From positions 62,001-126,000 of the forward strand of contig JAFWHX010000004.1 of assembly GCA_017533915.1 (NCBI GenBank): a DNA stretch of 64,000 bases, written 5' to 3'. The position numbers and the translations under genes were made by a program. The number at the start of each line of letters is the position of its first letter. Position 1 is the stretch's first letter. Of this stretch, positions 41,304 to 57,777 are shown in pieces. A model generated the notes under the pieces. It ran no database searches and was not told where the DNA came from. It worked only from the letters and a program-made list of their open reading frames with translations. This DNA is from Eubacterium sp. GTDB lineage: Bacteria > Bacillota > Clostridia > Peptostreptococcales > Anaerovoracaceae.

Positions 41304-41345
41304 TAATAGTAGTGCTACAATTACCTTAGAAAGGAGATGATAGTC

Positions 41346-42527
41346 GTGATAATATCGATAAAGAGATTTATGGTTATTGCTTCATGCGCCATCATTATGG
41401 CTATCTCACTGTCACTCATTAATACAAATGCATCATACGCAGTCGGCAATATCGACGAAGGTACTACCGGCACATGCAAATGGGAGTATTATCGGATAGG
41501 AAATGGTCCATATACTCTTCAGATCTCTGCGAAAAACCCCTCTGTAGGCGGTGTTATGGATAACTATACTCACTCATCACCGGCTCCATGGAACAAATAC
41601 AGAGAAAAGATAGAGGAAGTCAAATTTGAAAATGTACTGAGTATTGGAGATTATTCGTTCTATAACTATCCAAATATCACAAGTGTAAATCTCAAAGGCG
41701 TTACTGAAAAAATCTATTCCGAAACATATGAACTGATCGGCGAGAATGTCATAAAAGGTGTATCACGTGTAGGTACCGGCGCATTCGCATGGTGTAAAAA
41801 TATTGGATATATAATTATATTTGGCGAGAACTGTGTTATCTGCGAAGATGCTTTCGCTTTTTGCGAGGACGTCGTGATGAACTCAGTCGATCTTTATGGC
41901 ATAAAGTCTATTAGACGAGATGCTTTTGAAGAAGTTGACTGCAGAGAGCTATATCTTCAGGAAGGTCTTGAATCCATAGGCTGGGGAGCATTCAACAACA
42001 ACGAAGCTCTCACCACGGTCACGATACCGTCGACCTGCATATCGATATCAGACAATGCTTTCTCAGCATGCAAAATGCTTGAGACCGCATATATTATGAA
42101 TCCTTCCTGTACCCTTGAAGAATATGCATTTGATAAGGATTATTATACGACACTTCATGTTTATCCCGGATCGACCGGTGAAGTTTATGCAAAACAGTAC
42201 GGATTCAATTATGAGTTTATCAAGCTCTATAATCCAATGACAGTCGTACCGAAGACAGGAACCGTTAGATACTCAAGCCTTAGAAAAAAGACTCAGTATC
42301 TGAGCAGGAAAAAAGTTCTTACTATCAACAATTATGAAGGAACACTCAAGTTTAAAAAGCTATCTGGAAATAAGAAGATCACGATCAACAGCTCGACAGG
42401 TAAAGTTACAGTCAGAAAAGGGCTGAAGAAAAAGAAGTACAAGATCAAGGTAAAGGTCACAGCATCCGGAAACGCAAGTTTTGAGAAAGCTTCAGAGATC
42501 GTTACGTTTACTGTCAGAGTAAAATAG
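41346..42527 (+). CDS. Secreted leucine-rich-repeat (BspA-type) protein
   Basis: A 393-residue exported protein. A signal peptide covers about residues 1-30 (ASCAIIMAISLSLI, cleavage near ASYA). The middle has irregular LRR_5 repeats: IGDYSFYNYPNITSVNLKG, GTGAFAWCKNIG, CEDAFAFCED, IRRDAFEEVDCRELYLQEG, GWGAFNNNEALTTVTIPS and SDNAFSACKML. From about 300 a lysine-rich beta domain ends with KIKVKVTASGNAS and TFTVRVK, the same module as in the beta-helix protein at 45219-47012. No sortase motif. GTG 41346 is chosen because AAGGAG abuts the ATG at 41337. A ligand cannot be predicted. Confidence 0.8.
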   Translation: MIISIKRFMVIASCAIIMAISLSLINTNASYAVGNIDEGTTGTCKWEYYRIGNGPYTLQISAKNPSVGGVMDNYTHSSPAPWNKYREKIEEVKFENVLSIGDYSFYNYPNITSVNLKGVTEKIYSETYELIGENVIKGVSRVGTGAFAWCKNIGYIIIFGENCVICEDAFAFCEDVVMNSVDLYGIKSIRRDAFEEVDCRELYLQEGLESIGWGAFNNNEALTTVTIPSTCISISDNAFSACKMLETAYIMNPSCTLEEYAFDKDYYTTLHVYPGSTGEVYAKQYGFNYEFIKLYNPMTVVPKTGTVRYSSLRKKTQYLSRKKVLTINNYEGTLKFKKLSGNKKITINSSTGKVTVRKGLKKKKYKIKVKVTASGNASFEKASEIVTFTVRVK

Positions 42528-43613: not shown

Positions 43614-44213
43614 ATGAAAGCTAAGATAAGATGCTTTTTGATCTTAGGTCTTTCTGTTATTCTTGCATTCTGTCTGATCTCATGTACCGGAGCTTCCGAA
43701 AACACTGAGAACAGCGGCGGATCTGGACAGAAGACAGAGATCGAGCCTGACCCTAAGACTAAGGATGAGCCCGATGATACGAAGCCGGCAAAGGCTTATG
43801 ATGTCAGCGATGGAATGCAGACCGTTGCGTCTGAAGACGGATCGATAGAATATATCTATTTCAACGACTTCATGATCACTATGCCCAATAATGATAAATG
43901 GAGCTACGACATGACGCAGGATTCTGTAACGTTCTATCTGTTCTCCGCGCAGCAGGAAGGGTATGGCGGAAGGCTCGTCACCATAAGAGCGTATGATCTG
44001 GACGATGAGTCATACAAACAGCTACCAAGCTACCATGTCGCAGGTATAGGGCAGAACGTGGACAAACTGTTTATCGCTGAGTATCCGACAGATGTACAGT
44101 GGAACGGTAATGACAAAACACAGGATGCAGATTACAGAGAACTTCAGGCGTATCTCCAGAAGATCGGAGACAATGCTGTGAACAGTCCTGTCCAGACATC
44201 AGACGGTGACTGA
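43614..44213 (+). CDS. Small lipoprotein of unknown function
   Basis: A 199-residue protein with a lipoprotein signal (KIRCFLILGLSVILAFCLISC, lipobox Cys near 24), then a disordered Ser/Gly/Asp/Lys linker to about residue 62, then a globular part with FMITMPNNDKWSYDM, YHVAGIGQNVDKLFIAEYPTDVQW and YRELQAYLQKIG. The last block recurs in clostridial lipoproteins of unknown function. AGGAGGTGATGATAG gives an excellent ribosome site. The 200-bp divergent region upstream has a possible TTGAAT-N16-TAGTAT promoter. Confidence 0.8.
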   Translation: MKAKIRCFLILGLSVILAFCLISCTGASENTENSGGSGQKTEIEPDPKTKDEPDDTKPAKAYDVSDGMQTVASEDGSIEYIYFNDFMITMPNNDKWSYDMTQDSVTFYLFSAQQEGYGGRLVTIRAYDLDDESYKQLPSYHVAGIGQNVDKLFIAEYPTDVQWNGNDKTQDADYRELQAYLQKIGDNAVNSPVQTSDGD

Positions 44214-44244
44214 TAAAGATCATAGAGGTGATAGCATTAATTAT

Positions 44245-44277
44245 TACCAGTCAGATAAGTGTTCTGGCTGGTATTTT
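44245..44277 (+). terminator. Terminator-like stem-loop after small lipoprotein gene
   Basis: TACCAGTCAG and CTGGCTGGTA form a 10-bp stem with one G-U pair and a 9-nt loop, followed by TTTTC. It begins 31 bp after the lipoprotein stop. Confidence 0.65.
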
Positions 44278-44310
44278 CATATGTGAGGGGAAGGCGGGAT
44301 CGATATATAT

Positions 44311-44344
44311 AACTATTCCTAAAATCATAATTTTGGGAATAGTT
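44311..44344. repeat. 15-bp stem-loop in gene-poor spacer
   Basis: AACTATTCCTAAAAT and ATTTTGGGAATAGTT pair over 15 bp with one G-U and a 4-nt loop. No T run follows on either strand. It lies in the 453-bp stretch 44214-44666, which otherwise holds only the terminator-like stems on each side and A/T-rich sequence. Confidence 0.6.
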
Positions 44345-44596
44345 ATAGCGATACGCCAGAATAAGCCGCTCCGGCTGTACATATTGCAATCACTGCCTTT
44401 ACACTGCTTTATAAATATAATTGCATTTAATATATATTCTCTATTTCTGAAATGATTATAACGAAGAATTATTCGAGCCCTATTTTCACTTCTAAGCGAT
44501 TTTATTTAATATGGTCGATATTCTGTTCATCCTTATTTATCACTTATGATCGTTCTGTGCAGCAATTTATATCATGATCATTACTATTCTTCTATA

Positions 44597-44626
44597 AGAA
44601 AACGGAACGTCATTTCTGACGCTCCG
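44597..44626 (-). terminator. Terminator for the LysM gene
   Basis: On the minus strand CGGAGCGTCA and TGACGTTCCG form a stem with one mismatch and a GAAA tetraloop, followed by TTTTC. It lies 40 bp beyond the LysM stop. Confidence 0.65.
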
Positions 44627-44666
44627 CTCTCTGAGATTGTATATGGGTTTTATTAGGGTTAGCTTA

Positions 44667-45038
44667 TTATTGACTCACAGGTATCATCAGATTCTGTCCC
44701 TGGAATATTTCGCCTGCAGATATATTATTGTAGTCGCAGATCTCATACATGAAATCTCTTATATCTTTATCTGCCGGTTTATAGCATTCTGCGATCTCCC
44801 ATAATGTATCGCCGTACTGGACTGTGATCATCTCATATGAAGTCTTGCTTGAGCCTTCTGCATTGTATGATCCGATCATCATCCCGCCGGCCATCGTTAT
44901 CATAAGGATCGCTGCTACGAGCAATATTGTGAATCTTATTCTGTTTACTATATGTCTGTGATGATTACGTCTGCGTTTTCTGACAGCAGCACGTTCTGAG
45001 ATGCCATATGCATCATCGTATATCATTGTGTTTTCCAT
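44667..45038 (-). CDS. YneA-like LysM membrane protein, predicted SOS division inhibitor
   Basis: A 123-residue protein with a cytoplasmic, very basic N-terminus (RKRRRNHHRH), one transmembrane segment at about 35-56, and one extracellular LysM domain at about 70-121 (ITVQYGDTLWEIAECY, GQNLMIPVSQ). This is the layout of Bacillus YneA and its relatives, which block septation during DNA damage. The promoter carries two LexA-type boxes, which strongly supports that role. lexA, usually divergent from yneA, is not adjacent. GGGGTAAGAG lies before ATG 45038. Confidence 0.8.
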   Translation of the reverse strand: MENTMIYDDAYGISERAAVRKRRRNHHRHIVNRIRFTILLVAAILMITMAGGMMIGSYNAEGSSKTSYEMITVQYGDTLWEIAECYKPADKDIRDFMYEICDYNNISAGEIFQGQNLMIPVSQ

Positions 45039-45055
45039 ATCTCTTACCCCTTTTC

Positions 45056-45111
45056 GAACACTTGTTCGCCCTTGACAATAACAATATAACAGAACAGCCG
45101 TTCTCTGTCAA
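45056..45111 (-). promoter_or_regulatory. LysM-gene promoter with two LexA-type boxes
   Basis: On the minus strand: TTGACA (45106-45111), a 17-bp spacer and TATATT (45083-45088). One box, GAAC-GGCT-GTTC, fills the spacer (45092-45103). A second, GAAC-AAGT-GTTC (45056-45067), lies downstream of the -10 near the transcript start. Both fit GAAC-N4-GTTC exactly, so repression should be tight. Confidence 0.85.
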
Positions 45112-45147
45112 GTATTTTATAAACATTTGTTCTTTATTTTTTAAAAA

Positions 45148-45189
45148 CATAAAAGAGGGCGCTTTTTCAACTGTTTTAGCCGCCCTCTT
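45148..45189 (-). terminator. Terminator for the beta-helix protein gene
   Basis: A 9-bp stem (AAGAGGGCG / CGCCCTCTT on the plus strand) with a 19-nt loop, followed on the minus strand by TTTTATG. It lies 30 bp beyond the stop at 45219. Confidence 0.7.
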
Positions 45190-45218
45190 CAATGATCCAG
45201 ATAAATAATATCCGGTAT

Positions 45219-47012
45219 TTATTTGATTTTTACCGTTACGGTAACTGTTTTGCTGCTGCTTTTACAGCTGCTGTTTCCTGACGCCGTGACCTTTATTTTA
45301 AGCCTGTATGTACCCTTAGGTGTCCCCTTCTTTACCGTGATTTTGCCAGTCTTTGAATTAAATGACAGATATCTTTTTGATTTCTTATTTCCTGTCACTT
45401 TATATGTCACATTGCCTTCAGCATTTTTAACTGTAACAGCTTTGAATGTCTTTGCCGCCTTCTTGACCTTTGCTGCTTTATATGTCTTTGCCGACGCTGA
45501 GCTTACTGACATCGTCTGATCTTTCTTTTCAGAAGAATCTTCGCTGCTCTCGGAGCTCTCGTTATTCCTGTCTGAAGCAGTCTCTGTCGTTTCTGTGATA
45601 GTGCTCACTCCAGGATTTCCGCTCGTATATGTCTTGTTTCCTACCGTAAGCTTGTGTCCGTTATAATTGATCTTTCCTGTGCCGGAGATCGAGCTTACCG
45701 TCGTGTCTTCCGTAAGAACGATCAAAGCCTCATCTTCAAGTGTGATGTCTACTGTTCCCAGTGAAGAAGATACTGTAGATGAATCTTTATGTGAAATTAT
45801 CTTTCCGCTTGTCGTTCCTGTCCATACAGATGTGCCTTTAAGGTCAAGCTCAAGTTCTGAGTCGCTGCCAACGAGCATGGTCCCTGACAGTGTCTGATCC
45901 TTCGCATTAACAGACGCTTTGTTATTCAGTCCGCTCCATGCGTCGCTGCAGACTGAGAGAAGCACGTTCTCGGTATCTGTATTGTTGATCTTCACTCCTT
46001 CAAGCGTGATGGCAGCGCTTGTGTTCGTAACGTGGAACACATGTCCGATACTGTTGTTGAGCGTACCTCCTGTCATCGTGAATACGCTTGCTCCTTCAGA
46101 CGCATCGCCTGACATTGACTGATACAGGAAGATACCGTTTCTGAAATAATCCTGACTGTTCAGCTGTTCGTTCGCTGCGTTTATCGTGCAGTTCTCCAGG
46201 ATCACGGTATTTCCGCCTTCATTGACTACGCCCTGTGACGCAGTAGTCGACAGTGTCGCATTCTTGACATTGATAGTTGCTGTTGCGTATATTGCAGGTG
46301 ATCCGACTCCGCTCGTGGTGTATGACCCGCCGTCTACATTAACAAAGCCTCCACCTCTGTCGGATCTTATCGCAGCTGATGATCGTCCCGCAGTAGTTAT
46401 CGTAAGGTCACTGGCGTTTGTCGTACCAAAGCCCGTAGTCATGATTCCGCCGGAACCATCGCCGGTCGTTTTGATCGTCGAGTCAGATATATTCACCGTA
46501 GTTCCGTCGCCTGAAGCCGCATTTGTAGAAGCATTGCCGCCATAGCAGAACACTCCGTTCGCGCCAGAAGCATCAGTCGTGATCTTTGCATTTTTGATGG
46601 TCGTCGTGCCGCCGCCTTTGCACATCACCGCAGAGTTCGTGCCATAGAAGCTCTCGCTATCGCCCGCGCTGCTGCCGCCTGTCTTGGTAACTGCCACATT
46701 TGTAAGTGTGACATCATCTGAAGTGTCAACGAGAAGAGCATTCTCTGATGCTGTTGTGGAAGAATACGTTTTCCCATTCTCTGTGGCAACACTTGTGATC
46801 TTCGATGCTCCTGTCCAGGATACGCTGTCTGAAGACTGACCCGGAGCACCACCTGGAGCACCGTCTGGCGGAGCACCTCCTCCAGGCATCTCACTTCCAG
46901 GAGGCTCAGCAGATGCTGCGCTGCTCTCTGACTGAGCACAGCTTACACATGGTACAGCGATCATAGTCGAGCATATAGTACTCACAATTAACTTCTTTAT
47001 TATATCGTTCAT
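45219..47012 (-). CDS. Secreted beta-helix protein with Gly/Pro-rich N-terminus
   Basis: A 597-residue exported protein. The signal peptide covers about 1-27 (LIVSTICSTMIAVPCVSC). A Pro/Gly/Ala-rich stretch (GGGAPPDGAPGGAPGQ) follows, then from about 65 to 450 many short Ser/Thr/Asn/Gly strands with recurring VTLTNVAV, TTIKNAKIT, TVNISDSTIKTTGDGSG and SGGIMTTG, typical of a right-handed parallel beta-helix adhesin or carbohydrate-binding scaffold. A Ser/Glu linker leads to the same C-terminal module as the LRR protein (TGKITVKKGT, KIKVTASGNSS, TVKIK). No anchor motif. The best ribosome-site match lies 40 bp too far upstream. Confidence 0.75.
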   Translation of the reverse strand: MNDIIKKLIVSTICSTMIAVPCVSCAQSESSAASAEPPGSEMPGGGAPPDGAPGGAPGQSSDSVSWTGASKITSVATENGKTYSSTTASENALLVDTSDDVTLTNVAVTKTGGSSAGDSESFYGTNSAVMCKGGGTTTIKNAKITTDASGANGVFCYGGNASTNAASGDGTTVNISDSTIKTTGDGSGGIMTTGFGTTNASDLTITTAGRSSAAIRSDRGGGFVNVDGGSYTTSGVGSPAIYATATINVKNATLSTTASQGVVNEGGNTVILENCTINAANEQLNSQDYFRNGIFLYQSMSGDASEGASVFTMTGGTLNNSIGHVFHVTNTSAAITLEGVKINNTDTENVLLSVCSDAWSGLNNKASVNAKDQTLSGTMLVGSDSELELDLKGTSVWTGTTSGKIISHKDSSTVSSSLGTVDITLEDEALIVLTEDTTVSSISGTGKINYNGHKLTVGNKTYTSGNPGVSTITETTETASDRNNESSESSEDSSEKKDQTMSVSSASAKTYKAAKVKKAAKTFKAVTVKNAEGNVTYKVTGNKKSKRYLSFNSKTGKITVKKGTPKGTYRLKIKVTASGNSSCKSSSKTVTVTVKIK

Positions 47013-51819: not shown

Positions 51820-54800
51820 CTATTTTATTCTTTTTGATGTCTTAATAGTGCTCCATGCACCGTAATAAGTCTTTTTATCGACCCTCTTATATGCACGGAT
51901 CCTGACCTGATACTGCTTTCCGGATCTCAGCTTTCTGATGGTACAGCTCTGCTTCTTGCTGACAGCTTTCTTCCATTTCTTTGCGCCTTTGATCCTGTAC
52001 TGGATCTCATATCTGTCGCCGCCAGTTTCTGAGACCTTCTTCTTAGCTTTCACTGTCATCTTCTTTTTGCCCGGCTTTACACTGTTTATCGCCGCTTTTC
52101 CAGGCACTACAGTGAATGTCTTTACTATTTCACCTTTGTATTTATAGCTGTTAGCTCTGATGTAGATCTTTCCAATGCCGACCATGCCATTATCAACATC
52201 TCCATCGACTTTATAGTCTGACGGCTTAAGACCGGATACTTCGACCTCAGGCTGGATGTACTGACCGTTGTAAACATATTTTGTTTTTTTCATTGTCACG
52301 GCGTAATTACTGATGTCGATCACAAGTGCCTGTGATAACTGATTTGTAAGATCTTCCACTTTGTCTTCCAGCTCATCGATCTTATCCTGCATTACACCAA
52401 GATCATAGGCTGATATCGTCTCCATTGTTTCTTCCAGTATGTCATTTGCCTGAGCAAGTTTGTTCTGTGCGTCTACAAGGAGTTCGTAAGCGGCATTAAG
52501 CTGTTCGGCATTACCGGTTTCAATAGCGGCTTTTATGGCCTTATCAGCTTCCTCAAGCGCCAGCTGAGCTGCATCTACTATTGCGTTAGCATCTTCTTCA
52601 GAATAAATGATCTTGAATGGCATTACAGTTTCATCTGTGAATCTGCCCTTACCTTTCACATCAAGGAGGTAAAGGCCTGGCTCTATCAGATCCGGACCAT
52701 CGTCAGGTCTGAAGAACTCCCATTCATAGTCAACTCCAGGCTGAAGAAGTTCACCGCGATATTCGATCTGAGGCTCAATGTCGTCACCAGTGTAGTACCC
52801 AGGTCTTGTTCTCGCGAGGTCTATACTGATGAGATGAGATTCAGTATTATTTACTATATCGCTGATATCGATTCTTTTATCATAAATATCTGTAACTGTG
52901 AACCGACTGTTGATAACTTCTCCATCTCCATCAAAATCGCTTATATCATTGATTTCTGAAATTTTTGTCTTTTCAAGTGTTATATCATCAGCGTTAGCGG
53001 CTGATATATTGAAGGCCTTTTTGCTGATCGGAAGATAATATTCCAGGAAGCCGTACATATTGACATATACTGACGGCATTAGCGTTATTTCTTCAGACAG
53101 TTCAGATGGCTTCACCGGACGATCTCCACTTTTAGTTACGTAATACATCTCTGAAAGATGGCCGTCATCACTATCGAAGATCAGCACTACTTTATCTGGA
53201 TCTTTGATATCTCCTGTAATACATGCAACTTCTATCTGATCTTCAGATTCCTTATATACTGCAGCAACGTGATTCTCACCTGACGCATCGTTTATCGCAA
53301 ACCATGTATTATCAAAAGGATCGATCTCCCAGTCGCTCTTGTTTTCGCTGTACCAGTCGATCATTTTCTGCCAGCTTTCGGTAGGAGGATACTGTACTGC
53401 CTGAATAGTACCTAATGACGTATTGGCCAGCTCATAGAGATGTCCGACTTGCTCACTTTCGAAATTTTCTGTCAGATACTTCTTCAAGGCAGGAAGCTCA
53501 AAGCTGGCGTTCATCTCTACAGATTTGATCACCCTCTTTTTTACATCACTGATATGTATCTCGTATCCGGTCCCGCTTTTCTGTTTTGCGGTGCTTGCCG
53601 TTATGTTATCGATACTGAGAGCTTCAGCCGCCTGCTGCTTTATCACTTCATCAAGCCATGTCTCAGTTTCAGCTTCATCATGTCCGGCGAGACTTCTCTT
53701 ATCGAAAAGCTGTTTTATTGATAATGACCATTCTGAGTATTCATCAATAAATGGATCGCCCTCGCCATCAGTCCAGTAAGCTTTGACTTTGTTAAAATCG
53801 ATATCTGTCTTTGGAACATGCGCTTCATTTACGATCTCGCTTATTGCCTTACCTGTTTCCATGACGAGAGCATAATCGATCATTGCGTTTCTGTAAGCAT
53901 CCAGGAATTTATATCGGGTATCATTTTCTTTGTCACGGATAGTATCTATCACATTTCCAATAACATCATAATATTCAGCTGCTGCATGGGGTGCCATCAT
54001 TTGAGGGAAGTACATCTGCATACCGCTTGTATACAGATTTTTATATTCAACACTGCCGTCAGAATCTCTTACTATCTTATCTTTTGAACATATGTTATCT
54101 GTTCCGTAGGCGTATATTATTTCGTCATTTCCAAGCACCTGGGATATTTTCTTTGAAAACTCAAGATAATCGTTGACGGTGTAATCAGGATCATCTCCTT
54201 CGCCTCCTCCTTCCGGTGCATTTAACTCTGTTTTGACTACGCCGAGAAGACCGGCGAGATTGCCAAGATCGAAGAGGTCGTCATCACCATATTGTATAGC
54301 TTCGTCAACGGACCTTAACTCATCATAGAACGCCTTCTTTGACATCTCATTATTCATGACATCAGCCATTCCGCAGAGAGCATCTTTAAACTCGCTGTTC
54401 ATGAGCTTTTTTGTATCGACTACAGCGAGTGTACCGTCCTGGCCTTTGCCTTCACCATTTGTATAGAACTCCTCAAAATCATCTACGATCTTTTTCCCGA
54501 GTTCGAACGTATCTATATCAGGTTTCTGTCCAAGCATATTGAGCCATCCGGAATACTCCTGTCCATATCCAGGCTCAAGCTCAGGTGACGCGATATAGTA
54601 ATCCATATAATCTGCAAGGATCAGATTAAGCTCCACGTTGTTCATGAGGCAGGCATCAAAGTCTATAAAATCAAATTTCGCGTCATTTGACGGATCATCA
54701 TCGCTCTGTTTTGTAACATTATTATCCCTCAGAGCATCCACGATCCCTATAAACGGCATAGTCTGAGGCATTATACTTTCTTCGTGGTCATCTACACCAA

Positions 54801-55398
54801 AGCCGCCGACCGGGCCGCCGCCATGATTCCAGAGTATAAGATCATATTTATCAGCCGGATAGTTCGCTTCACAGTAGTTTATGAAAGCCTTAAGCGTATC
54901 AGGATCTGACATCAGTTCGTCTTTTGATTTGACCGGTTCATTACCGGTCACTCCGTCTCCGTCAAGAAGCACAATTTTACCATGTGCGGGTCCTTCTGCA
55001 GGCTCGACGCGATACTCTGAATCTGCACCCTTTGCTTCCCAGATCTGATTATATTCCGCACTTACAGAATCGACAGGTTCACCTTCTGGAACAAGTTTAG
55101 GGTCGATACTGATGTACTCTTTTTCTAATCTCCATAGATTGGAACCGCCTGTCATAACGATAAAGCGAACGTCTTCATCATCACTGAAATTAGCTTTCAG
55201 GACCTGAAGCAGGTTGAAAGTCGCCATTCCAAACCAGGATTCAAGATTTGAGCCGCAGTCATACAGCATGACAGTTCTGACAGCTTTATTTGTATCTGCA
55301 TACGAATTCATGTTCCGATCGATAAAAGATATATGTGAAAACATAGAGATCATTAACGACACGATGAGGATAAATCCTATCTCTTTTTTTCTACTCAT
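51820..55398 (-). CDS. Secreted clostripain-family (C11) cysteine protease
   Basis: A roughly 1190-residue exported protein. A signal/anchor segment lies at about 8-25 (IGFILIVSLMISMF). The C11 domain follows: VRTVMLYDCGSNLE, then the catalytic His in LILWNHGGG near 192 and Cys in DFDACLMNNVE near 250. After about 560 come beta-rich regions, a FIVAR-like helical pair (IVDAAQLALEEADKAI, KLAQANDILEETM) and a coiled coil near 1000, an Ig-like strand set, and a fibronectin III domain at the end (YEIQYRIKGAKKWKKA, YQVRIRAYKRV). No sortase signal. ATG 55398 is chosen for spacing; 55404 is possible. A weak promoter lies upstream. Confidence 0.85.
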   Translation of the reverse strand: MSRKKEIGFILIVSLMISMFSHISFIDRNMNSYADTNKAVRTVMLYDCGSNLESWFGMATFNLLQVLKANFSDDEDVRFIVMTGGSNLWRLEKEYISIDPKLVPEGEPVDSVSAEYNQIWEAKGADSEYRVEPAEGPAHGKIVLLDGDGVTGNEPVKSKDELMSDPDTLKAFINYCEANYPADKYDLILWNHGGGPVGGFGVDDHEESIMPQTMPFIGIVDALRDNNVTKQSDDDPSNDAKFDFIDFDACLMNNVELNLILADYMDYYIASPELEPGYGQEYSGWLNMLGQKPDIDTFELGKKIVDDFEEFYTNGEGKGQDGTLAVVDTKKLMNSEFKDALCGMADVMNNEMSKKAFYDELRSVDEAIQYGDDDLFDLGNLAGLLGVVKTELNAPEGGGEGDDPDYTVNDYLEFSKKISQVLGNDEIIYAYGTDNICSKDKIVRDSDGSVEYKNLYTSGMQMYFPQMMAPHAAAEYYDVIGNVIDTIRDKENDTRYKFLDAYRNAMIDYALVMETGKAISEIVNEAHVPKTDIDFNKVKAYWTDGEGDPFIDEYSEWSLSIKQLFDKRSLAGHDEAETETWLDEVIKQQAAEALSIDNITASTAKQKSGTGYEIHISDVKKRVIKSVEMNASFELPALKKYLTENFESEQVGHLYELANTSLGTIQAVQYPPTESWQKMIDWYSENKSDWEIDPFDNTWFAINDASGENHVAAVYKESEDQIEVACITGDIKDPDKVVLIFDSDDGHLSEMYYVTKSGDRPVKPSELSEEITLMPSVYVNMYGFLEYYLPISKKAFNISAANADDITLEKTKISEINDISDFDGDGEVINSRFTVTDIYDKRIDISDIVNNTESHLISIDLARTRPGYYTGDDIEPQIEYRGELLQPGVDYEWEFFRPDDGPDLIEPGLYLLDVKGKGRFTDETVMPFKIIYSEEDANAIVDAAQLALEEADKAIKAAIETGNAEQLNAAYELLVDAQNKLAQANDILEETMETISAYDLGVMQDKIDELEDKVEDLTNQLSQALVIDISNYAVTMKKTKYVYNGQYIQPEVEVSGLKPSDYKVDGDVDNGMVGIGKIYIRANSYKYKGEIVKTFTVVPGKAAINSVKPGKKKMTVKAKKKVSETGGDRYEIQYRIKGAKKWKKAVSKKQSCTIRKLRSGKQYQVRIRAYKRVDKKTYYGAWSTIKTSKRIK

Positions 55399-55419
55399 AA
55401 CCATCCACTTTCTTTTAAA

Positions 55420-55448
55420 CAATTATCAATTATCCTTACTATGATCAA
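55420..55448 (-). promoter_or_regulatory. Possible promoter for the C11 protease
   Basis: On the minus strand TTGATC (55443-55448), a 17-bp spacer and TAATTG (55420-55425), 22 bp before the start. The -10 is poor. Confidence 0.35.
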
Positions 55449-55478: not shown

Positions 55479-57680
55479 TCATTCTCTCGTTATCGCGCCC
55501 ATACTCTTAAGCTCCTGCTTACGTTCATACATCAGCTTGTCTGCGCGCTCAAATACTTCATGGAAAGTACTTTCATCACCACATTTATATTCAGCAAGGC
55601 CGCCGGAAATTACGACCCGACCCGTTCCTATGTTCTGTTCTACTGCTCTGTCGAATTCAGCGACAAGATCCATTCTGTCCTGATAATCCTGTCCGTTCAT
55701 GAGCACTACGAACTCGTCTCCTCCTGTTCTGAATACCGGGCTGTGCTTGAACATCTCGCTGATCATCTTTCCTGCATCTTTGATGTACTGATCTCCGGCT
55801 TTATGTCCAAGTGTATCGTTTACGTGCTTGAGTCCGTTCACGTCACATACGAGCAGAGCAAAATCTTCTGCGTCTCCCTTTTTGATATCGTCCTCCATCT
55901 TTGACTCATATTCAGCAAAAGCATGCTTGCTCTTGACTCCTGTAAGCGGGTCTCTGTATGCTATCTCTCTGGCTTCATCCTCACATTTTCTCACATAGAA
56001 CCAGTTGGACAGCATTGTTCCAAGCGCTATGACAAATGTGCCTACCACAGCGGCAGCCGATCCCAGGATCATTATCATCATGTTTCTCTGAGAATCGATC
56101 ATAAACGGATCCTCATTAATTGATTCTATACTCTCTCCCGGCGCGAAATGATTACGTACAGCCAGAAGATTAGAAGCTGATATAGTGTAGCATTCTTCAC
56201 ATACCCAGATCATCGTCAGCATGAATATAAAGACCACGAGGAAGATCCATACAGTGAGATTCTTTCCGAACCTCCTTCCATGATCTCTTACCATTACGAA
56301 ACGGAAATACAATAATCCGATCACTGACCATACTATGAATATGAGCTGTGACTCACGTGACATGCCTCCTAGTCCAAAGCTGCTTGTCACGAATACATAT
56401 ACTCCGAATACGATCATTATTGCCAGGCCGAGAAGACCTGTGACCTTGACGATCTTCTCTCCATCTGCTTTTGATGCCTTGTAGGATGACGCTGAAGCAA
56501 ATCCGTAAAGCAGTATCGCTCCTATCGTAGTCACATCAACGATCCATCCAACGGCAGTACGTCCAACGAGTGTTATAGGAATAGTGAAGGCCATGATAAG
56601 GATGATCGCTGATTCCGGTACATTCTGGCTGTTAAGTACTGCGAATCTCCTGGGCAGTATCTTGTCTCTAGACAGATCAAAGAACAGACGGCTGAGAGAT
56701 ATCATGTTTCCAATCAGACTTGAGAACACCAGTCCAAGAAGCGAGATCATAAGGATCATCACGCCTGCATTTCCCATATACTTATATGCCGCATAGAATG
56801 ACGGAAGCCCTTCAATACCGCTCAGACTGTCCAGATCACTGATATATTCCAGCCAGCTGCTGTACCGCTCCGGATATGCTGATACAGACATCAGAAGCAC
56901 AAAAACATATAATGCCGTAGTAACGATTATCGCGACCCTGAAAATGCCGATGACCTTCTTCTTAGGGAAGTCAAATTCCTCAACGGAATGGCTTATGCTC
57001 TCGAATCCCACGAAAGCCCACGGAGTGATAAATGCGATCTTTATCACCTGACGCAAAAGTGAGGTATCAGGAAGGAAAAAAGGATCGAAAGTATTTGCAG
57101 ATGATCCGTTCCCTGCCATGATCCCTATGAAGCATACAGTTATTCCAGCGCAGAACGCGAGCACGGCAGATATGATAATGCCCTGTGTAAGGCTTTTGGA
57201 CTTCATGCATATCAGACCGAAGACAGCTGCTGCAAAAAGAGTAAGGATTATCTCACCGAGAAAAATGTCATATCCAAGAAATGTGTACAGATATCCGAAG
57301 CGGAATATATCACCGAAGAAATACCGCATGAACAGAGGAAGTGACGTGGCATTCGCCCACAGCATCGCCATATATGTCAGGCTGATGAACCACGAGATAA
57401 GGAATGCCCTGTCATATCCGAAGATATCCTTTACATAAGTGTAGATCCCGCCTGCTTCGGGGAACTTGTTGATGAGATACGCGAAGTTTCTTGCCATTAT
57501 AAGCATTACAGCTGCACCTATTATCATGCCTGCCGCGCTTCCTACCGGTCCGGCATGCAGGAGATATTCGTTATTCGTAACAACAAGTGATCCCCATCCG
57601 ATGGCTGTTCCTACTGCGAGTGCAAATGCACCGAGTACCGATAAATATGGCTTTAGCATTGTTTTTTTGTAATCCGACAT
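55479..57680 (-). CDS. Amino-acid permease (APC) fused to GGDEF diguanylate cyclase
   Basis: A 733-residue membrane protein. Residues 1 to about 455 form an APC-superfamily amino-acid carrier: AVGTAIGWGSLVV in helix 1, FPEAGGIYTYVKDIFG, FVGFESISHSVEEF in helix 6, and about 12 helices. Two more helices frame an extracellular loop (about 480-540). From about 565 a complete GGDEF domain follows, with RDPLTGVKSKHAF, DVNGLKHVNDTLGHKAGDQ, an intact GGDEF near 652 and ERADKLMYERKQ. The RxxD inhibition site is replaced by FKHS. It likely makes c-di-GMP in response to substrate. ATG 57680 is preferred: GGAAAG is 8 bp upstream. Confidence 0.9.
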   Translation of the reverse strand: MSDYKKTMLKPYLSVLGAFALAVGTAIGWGSLVVTNNEYLLHAGPVGSAAGMIIGAAVMLIMARNFAYLINKFPEAGGIYTYVKDIFGYDRAFLISWFISLTYMAMLWANATSLPLFMRYFFGDIFRFGYLYTFLGYDIFLGEIILTLFAAAVFGLICMKSKSLTQGIIISAVLAFCAGITVCFIGIMAGNGSSANTFDPFFLPDTSLLRQVIKIAFITPWAFVGFESISHSVEEFDFPKKKVIGIFRVAIIVTTALYVFVLLMSVSAYPERYSSWLEYISDLDSLSGIEGLPSFYAAYKYMGNAGVMILMISLLGLVFSSLIGNMISLSRLFFDLSRDKILPRRFAVLNSQNVPESAIILIMAFTIPITLVGRTAVGWIVDVTTIGAILLYGFASASSYKASKADGEKIVKVTGLLGLAIMIVFGVYVFVTSSFGLGGMSRESQLIFIVWSVIGLLYFRFVMVRDHGRRFGKNLTVWIFLVVFIFMLTMIWVCEECYTISASNLLAVRNHFAPGESIESINEDPFMIDSQRNMMIMILGSAAAVVGTFVIALGTMLSNWFYVRKCEDEAREIAYRDPLTGVKSKHAFAEYESKMEDDIKKGDAEDFALLVCDVNGLKHVNDTLGHKAGDQYIKDAGKMISEMFKHSPVFRTGGDEFVVLMNGQDYQDRMDLVAEFDRAVEQNIGTGRVVISGGLAEYKCGDESTFHEVFERADKLMYERKQELKSMGAITRE

Positions 57681-57777
57681 ACGCCACACTTTCCAAAAGC
57701 TTCATAAACTGTTTTATGCTGCCGTTCTGTTCTTATCGATCGCTTCTTTTGATTATCAGTTACAGTTTGTCTCTAAA

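Follow-up and report, generated by a model that had tools for sequence, protein, structure and literature searches.

The window analysed here, a 64,000-nucleotide stretch of a Eubacterium sp. genome (assembly GCA_017533915.1, contig JAFWHX010000004.1, positions 62,001 to 126,000), encodes a protein in which an amino acid permease of the APC type is fused to a GGDEF (diguanylate cyclase) domain. We hypothesize, with a probability of about 0.7, that this protein is a permease-derived membrane receptor (a transceptor) controlling a diguanylate cyclase, because a single permease-linker module is found on four kinds of output, the fused permeases form one clade, the ligand pocket is conserved, and the helix leading from the membrane to the enzyme is locked to heptad steps in length.

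The gene is one open frame of 733 codons for amino acids at 55479-57680 on the minus strand (ATG at 57680, stop at 55479-55481; a GTG at 57689, 9 bases upstream of the ATG, is a possible alternative start), which confirms the permease-GGDEF fusion described in the initial annotation, a reading of the DNA made without database searches. Pfam finds AA_permease (PF00324) at residues 20-435 (95.8 bits, cut-off 24.6), AA_permease_2 (PF13520) at 13-453 (82.6 bits, cut-off 27) and GGDEF (PF00990) at 574-723 (81.4 bits, cut-off 23.8); at E <= 0.1 the list holds these three, bpMoxR (below its cut-off), and nothing else. Alignment-averaged hydropathy gives 14 transmembrane (TM) segments: the 12 of the permease, plus residues 475-493 (TM13) and 540-558 (TM14). 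The AlphaFold model (mean predicted local distance difference test score, pLDDT, 87.9) has matching membrane segments and breaks TM1 after residue 26 and TM6 after residue 223, as is typical of the LeuT-type fold, and a Foldseek search with it returned the APC fold, with KimA carrying bound c-di-AMP among the matches. The annotated plan of about 12 APC-type helices followed by two more around an extracellular loop agrees with hydropathy and model alike. Both ends of the 12-helix carrier would lie inside the cell, with an extracellular stretch of about 45 residues between TM13 and TM14 and a cytoplasmic GGDEF domain. The features of the gene are:

55479..57680, minus strand: whole gene, with APC permease, TM13/TM14 linker and GGDEF domain, 733 residues (Pfam; the order recurs in relatives)
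57689..57694, minus strand: GGAAAG, resembling a ribosome-binding site, 8 bases before the ATG at 57680 (read directly)
56292..57644, minus strand: APC permease domain, residues 13-463, 12 TM helices
57591..57611, minus strand: TM1 unwound segment GTAIGWG, residues 24-30, at the ligand-binding position of the fold (invariance; helix break in the model)
57000..57026, minus strand: TM6 unwound segment TPWAFVGFE, residues 219-227 (invariance; AdiC alignment)
56706..56708, minus strand: TM8 residue N325, aligned with M321 of GkApcT (alignment)
55956..56258, minus strand: linker module of TM13, extracellular helical hairpin, TM14 and coupling helix, residues 475-575 (linker hidden Markov model (HMM); structural model)
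55953..56006, minus strand: cytoplasmic coupling helix, residues 559-576, one heptad shorter than in most relatives
55512..55961, minus strand: GGDEF diguanylate cyclase domain, residues 574-723 (Pfam; catalytic residues kept in 73 or 72 of 73 aligned fusions)
55710..55724, minus strand: GGDEF signature, residues 653-657 (translation; alignment)

The fusion belongs to a recurrent family. With an alignment of the first fusions as query, a search through genomes, one for each species, found 554 relatives, and the counts given here refer to the best 80 of these; a single-protein query scan of genome contigs gave no match, unlike the alignment-based scan. Permease, linker and GGDEF domain lie in one frame in 77 of the 80, two others carry an HD-GYP domain, and one is frame-broken (L121). 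Because the identical one-frame order recurs in 77 of 80 relatives, the fusion is no assembly accident. Forty of the 77 run on into a receiver, a degenerate second GGDEF domain and an EAL domain, so that an enzyme domain for cyclic di-GMP (c-di-GMP) breakdown sits on the same chain. By gene, the 80 loci hold 40 of these long forms, 39 short forms (permease, linker, GGDEF), six fusions of permease and linker to a histidine kinase with two receivers, and three of permease to kinase and receiver. By NCBI names, the loci fall in Clostridia (62), Erysipelotrichia (4), other Bacillota (3), Coriobacteriia (8), Actinomycetes (2) and Gammaproteobacteria (1). Record titles for 63 of the 80 carry ruminant words or the identifiers RUG, RGIG, SIG or RUI, which we take to mark rumen or ruminant-gut collections. 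Two loci are disrupted, L014 by an in-frame stop and L121 by a frame break between linker and GGDEF domain, reflecting either decay or assembly error.

The initial annotation had held transporter fusions of this sort to be rare, and had proposed a domain-architecture search. Genome by genome the distribution is indeed patchy, with full-length GGDEF fusions in at least 9 of 197 genomes sampled at family level (one has an internal stop), 4 of 297 at order level, 4 of 391 at class level and 1 of 398 at phylum level (lower bounds, as 2 to 5 candidates were scored per genome; the samples overlap and each includes the window's own genome). As an architecture, however, it recurs, as the 77 of 80 best relatives among the 554 make plain. 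Whether it had already been described was a further question of the annotation: literature searches of titles and abstract openings, with subscription papers mostly outside them, listed among their matches no account of an APC permease fused to a GGDEF domain, an HD-GYP domain or a kinase, and the family is apparently undescribed.

The cyclase domain of the window protein retains an intact RTGGDEF at residues 651-657, together with D613, K618, N621, D630 and K721, with roles as in PleD-type enzymes. Conservation was counted in alignment A3, whose 73 rows are 79 fusions minus six that are more than 85% identical, minus a kinase fusion (L060), plus the window protein; L121 fell out by a coverage filter and L086 was excluded by name, and L014 had been left out of alignments A1 and A2. 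GGDE is present in 73 of 73 rows, and the final F and D630 in 72 each, so the annotated intact motif stands, and the alignment check for inactive key residues found none in the window protein. At the position of the RxxD product-inhibition site the window protein reads FKHS, and RxxD occurs in 0 of the 73, as the annotation had also stated for this protein. From the profile match and the intact residues we predict that the window protein synthesizes c-di-GMP.

The same permease module is found with other outputs. HD-GYP replaces GGDEF in four fusions (L062, L086 from the isolate Ruminococcus sp. YE71, L143 and L144), and the window's own genome encodes a second permease fusion of 1106 residues with HisKA, HATPase and two receiver domains (L039, 5511-8828), adjoining a receiver-GGDEF-EAL gene and a hybrid kinase gene; such permease-kinase fusions recur among the relatives. 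The permease with its two extra helices thus appears to behave as an input module joined to varied outputs, much as PAS or Cache domains are. A related permease (L145, 2086-4983, minus strand) is fused to a non-signalling domain, a sugar-transfer-associated ATP-grasp (PF14397, 143 bits), and is possibly an uptake-and-ligate enzyme.

In a permease tree of 83 rows, 68 fused (67 genes) and 15 free-standing, the fused permeases form one clade (support 100/100) with no free-standing permease inside it, although the free-standing kin were taken by similarity from searches and a fuller sample could alter this result. Within it, permeases with c-di-GMP outputs are again one clade (100/100), and the kinase forms branch outside. 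On this tree the HD-GYP output requires two changes, of which the starred branches make just one obligatory; the EAL tail takes three. The 83 rows were drawn from 124 by dropping every second GGDEF-type row, the window gene is present twice (L004 is a truncated copy), and the program flagged two long branches, L131 and L049. In a tree of GGDEF domains most fusion GGDEFs group together, 42 of them with three others that include the severed part of the broken L121 (86/83; the bootstrap had not converged), which lends weak support to a single joining event. A long form from a metagenome-assembled genome of Succinivibrionaceae (Pseudomonadota; L115, 6977-11353) pairs in the tree with a Lachnospiraceae sequence (L055), as would be seen after gene transfer or with a mis-binned contig.

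The permease pocket is strongly conserved. Invariant in all 86 c-di-GMP-type fusions are G24, G28, W29 and G30 of TM1 and P220, W221, A222, F223, G225, F226 and E227 of TM6; W221 aligns with AdiC W202 and E227 with AdiC E208 (the AdiC copy used lacks the first Met, so its numbers are one lower there). As the hhalign comparison with AdiC (probability 95, E 3.4e-8) spans only positions 53-357 of alignment A4, TM1 was mapped through GkApcT. The best-conserved of the 12 helices are TM10, 6, 1, 3 and 8 (0.75-0.86, the rest 0.54-0.67), which are the pocket-lining helices of this fold, and the two unwound segments average 0.903, a mean that 58 of 5000 randomly drawn pairs of TM windows also attained. 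This conservation of pocket helices and unwound segments argues that the permease module is not a decayed carrier. Residue 325 is N in 59, M in 23, T in two and L in two of the 86 fusions; by architecture it is N in 38 of 43 short forms, and M in 20 and N in 19 of 41 long forms. The N/M split hints at more than one ligand class, with descent as a confounder. The corresponding residue is F in 15 of 15 free-standing permeases and mostly G or A in the short-loop kinase fusions, and the free-standing permeases have D at the position of E227 (14 of 15) and Q at that of H231 (15 of 15).

Between membrane and enzyme, the model shows linker helices at residues 475-511 and 525-575, the latter one continuous helix of 51 residues. 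The spacing from TM14 to the GGDEF domain (F549 to D577) is 35 in 63 of the 73 aligned fusions and 28 in the other 10, including the window protein, with no other value, while the length from W478 to F549 varies from 62 to 98 in the same sequences. The two spacings differ by exactly one heptad, and in a quick tree the shorter arose twice. In 21 kinase fusions the spacing from TM14 to the His is constant, judged by eye; the noisier hydropathy-based coupling length is 50 in 18 of these (47, 49 and 53 in the others), against 35-36 in eight and 42-45 in 65 of the 73 GGDEF fusions. A linker HMM (residues 456-572) trained on GGDEF fusions alone gives 53-89 bits for long kinase fusions, 87-108 bits for three HD-GYP fusions, 12.5 bits for the fourth, short-loop HD-GYP fusion and about 19 for two distant kinase fusions (L144, L130 and L132 are the weak matches). 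Among 17 rows classed as free-standing it matched none, two of these rows being one contig-truncated kinase fusion.

On this basis we propose the following mechanism. The ligand would be a small extracellular molecule, an amino acid or a close analogue being the likeliest, that binds the outward-facing central pocket, and closure of the pocket would move the last permease helix against TM13. In a dimer, the TM13/TM14 hairpin would relay this movement by shifting or rotating the continuous helix 525-575; the two GGDEF domains would thereby meet productively or be parted, which would set a c-di-GMP output free of RxxD feedback. Many relatives also have the opposing EAL activity, either on the same chain or in an adjacent gene, along with a receiver domain. 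That the ligand raises c-di-GMP, instead of lowering it, we favour by a narrow margin. The initial annotation had suggested a transporter-receptor in which amino-acid binding or flux sets the output; the receptor part is upheld by the varied outputs, the single clade, the conserved pocket and the heptad-locked helix, and an amino-acid ligand, flux as opposed to binding as the trigger, and freedom from product feedback by any other route are suppositions.

Several points weigh against the transceptor reading. The pocket motif is common to free-standing permeases (W29 in 13 of 15), so pocket conservation alone cannot tell a receptor from a transporter. The 73 spacing rows are related sequences with only two spacing changes on the tree, far below 73 independent events. 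The model is of a monomer and its pLDDT is only 61-85 over residues 491-580; the dimer and the helix movement are conjectural, and the roles given to ligand, binding, transport and cyclase are read from sequence, tree and model. Eight kinase fusions, either short-loop or like L131, give no match to the linker HMM; given these short-loop forms and the 12.5-bit HD-GYP fusion, the extracellular hairpin is evidently not needed in every form. None of 11 further members of the genus among the genomes sampled at order level has the fusion, which is on that account dispensable. Finally, the branch of the window protein is long (0.79) and its gene is not part of the kinase/EAL operon found elsewhere in the same genome, for which reasons its own circuit may be decayed.

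Among the alternatives, a working amino-acid transporter that also signals, with uptake and not just binding driving the cyclase, is the most serious; we regard it as possible but doubtful, and it overlaps with the transceptor reading, which leaves transport open. CbrA and Gap1 are signalling transporters of this sort. The fold, gating residues and pocket motifs are all kept, and CbrA does transport histidine (PMC13022988), but no free-standing permease falls within the fused clade, and two transporter-derived receptors, Ks-Amt5 and Ssy1, bind without measurable transport (PMC5764959, PMC12958826). The lysine of ApcT-type TM5 is also missing at the aligned position in the fusions, a point blunted by its absence from the free-standing relatives too.

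A nutrient need not be the cue: the permease might sense a proton or membrane gradient, pH or another physical signal, as the alignment of the invariant TM6 acid E227 with AdiC E208 (a pH-related residue in AdiC) could suggest. We consider this unlikely, since position 325 in the pocket varies between N and M within the family, suggesting ligand tuning. Control might also run in reverse, with the GGDEF domain sensing GTP or c-di-GMP and adjusting transport. Transport by KimA is controlled by c-di-AMP, and KimA solved with that nucleotide is among the structural matches; yet the catalytic residues are kept in 73 of 73 fusions (D630 in 72), the RxxD site for c-di-GMP is found in none, and histidine kinases and HD-GYP domains are attached to this module as well, which makes this reading very improbable. 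Hardly more credible is a passive fusion, in which the permease merely anchors a constitutive cyclase at the membrane: the poor conservation of the extracellular hairpin (0.345) would fit it, but the varied outputs on one module, the heptad-locked spacing and the strongly conserved pocket helices would not.

Relatives of the gene hint at a c-di-GMP circuit around the putative receptor. In 40 of 40 long forms the second GGDEF motif is lost and the EAL and receiver motifs are kept (by loose motif patterns). Short forms have a separate EAL gene within 600 bp in 13 of 39 cases, long forms in 2 of 40 (Fisher p 0.0015), a count from related loci with flanks of differing length; with more than 2 kb on both sides it is 10 of 25 versus 2 of 25. 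Six loci (L054, L058, L060, L061, L069, L094) carry, in order, a hybrid kinase, a receiver-degenerate GGDEF-EAL protein, a permease-kinase and a permease-GGDEF-receiver-degenerate GGDEF-EAL protein. We infer a pairing of c-di-GMP writer and eraser, with the permease-kinase as a possible driver of the latter. The window's genome has eight GGDEF, four EAL and one PilZ matches, the last in a family-2 glycosyltransferase (L138, 1-2307) that looks like cellulose synthase and is a likely c-di-GMP effector. A c-di-GMP-I riboswitch search of this genome had 0 matches, with the control likewise matching nowhere.

In the window, a gene for a C11 (clostripain-family) protease (51820-55422, minus strand) starts 56 bases downstream of the fusion gene on the same strand and may be co-transcribed with it; its product has a weak fibronectin-III-like match at the C-terminal end, below the Pfam cut-off. 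The annotation had suggested that this protease supplies the amino acids. As a general feature this is not supported, as no homologue was found in the 80 related loci (tblastn 1e-10; flanks of at most 7 kb, often cut by contig ends), and the protease was rejected as a general partner. Beyond the large signalling cluster no neighbour recurs widely in the 80 loci, the next clusters being present in eight, five and three; the example of the eight-locus cluster is a frame antisense to the fusion gene. Elsewhere in the window, at about 44000-45200, genes lie mostly on the plus strand to the left and on the minus strand to the right and the GC skew changes sign, the kind of pattern seen at a replication terminus or where genes simply converge; a dif consensus had 0 matches in the window. 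Proteins encoded at 41337-42527 (plus strand) and 45219-47012 (minus strand) of the window and at L048 3-1760 are otherwise different, yet their C-terminal segments resemble one another (GNKK...TGKVTVKKGLKKG-Y-KVKVTA-GN type) and may be a shared surface or anchoring module.

More speculatively, and at somewhat less than even odds, the fusions may constitute a bacterial family of dedicated and non-transporting APC-fold nutrient receptors, a counterpart of Ssy1 with a fused output, that arose once as a receptor and then swapped outputs (kinase, GGDEF, GGDEF-EAL, HD-GYP); in some operons the writer, and the kinase possibly driving the eraser, would listen through the same kind of pocket via a heptad-locked helix. 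Transporters acting as receptors are few in bacteria, and even for CbrA it is an open question how the movement is passed to the output. With a single permease module on four output types, and coupling helices one heptad apart, the coupling becomes dissectable by swaps. In Clostridia, Erysipelotrichia and Coriobacteria, many of the ruminant gut, the family may link c-di-GMP directly to amino-acid supply, and genes annotated there as 'amino acid permease' may in fact encode receptors.

Known systems resemble the window protein in part. Membrane diguanylate cyclases with MASE, Cache or 7TM inputs share the order of membrane input, helix and GGDEF domain; here the input is a whole 12-helix carrier, and no such input domain was found by Pfam (E <= 0.1, as for the other domains sought below). 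In a transceptor in the broad sense, a transporter fold is joined to a signalling output, as it is in the window protein, and ligand binding would alter that output. CbrA, CrbS/MxtR and RpuS likewise combine a LeuT-fold transporter with a C-terminal signalling output (PMC13022988, PMC7918813, PMC9100948); CbrA, called a rare transceptor, joins SLC5, STAC, PAS and kinase domains (PMC13022988, PMC7918813), and binds as well as transports histidine (PMC13022988). Proteins of the CbrA type have an SLC5/SSS transporter, a four-helix STAC domain, a PAS domain and a kinase output, whereas the family described here has AA_permease, a TM13/TM14 hairpin and a direct helix, with GGDEF, EAL and HD-GYP outputs as well as kinases. 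No SSF model matched the window protein, and the 28 residues from F549 (in TM14) to D577 of the GGDEF domain, a single helix in the model, do not amount to a STAC domain.

Ks-Amt5, which binds but does not translocate, is likewise a transporter fold turned receptor with a fused output (PMC5764959). It differs in its Amt fold, its ammonium ligand and its histidine kinase, and no Amt model matched the window protein. Amt-GGDEF/EAL fusions are also on record, and a search for them returned nothing. Yeast Ssy1 (and Gap1) is, as proposed for the present family, an APC-superfamily transporter relative acting as a receptor, in Ssy1 with no detectable transport (PMC12958826); Ssy1 is eukaryotic and signals via separate partners, Ptr3 and Ssy5, with no fused enzyme. 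It shares its fold with the window protein. The S-component-like 5TMR receptors, presented by their authors as the first prokaryotic transceptor case with STAC proteins set aside, also place a transporter-related membrane fold on kinases, GGDEF and EAL domains (PMC11109136), but that fold is the S-component of ECF transporters and not APC. By a term search, 'permease' does not occur in a review of c-di-GMP evolution (PMC10333796), and none of these works describes an AA_permease input with a fused enzyme. By the features compared, the window protein reads as an APC permease-GGDEF protein, neither an SLC5/STAC nor an Amt sensor. None of CbrA, Ks-Amt5 and Ssy1 has this permease with these outputs; they are its known relatives in kind.

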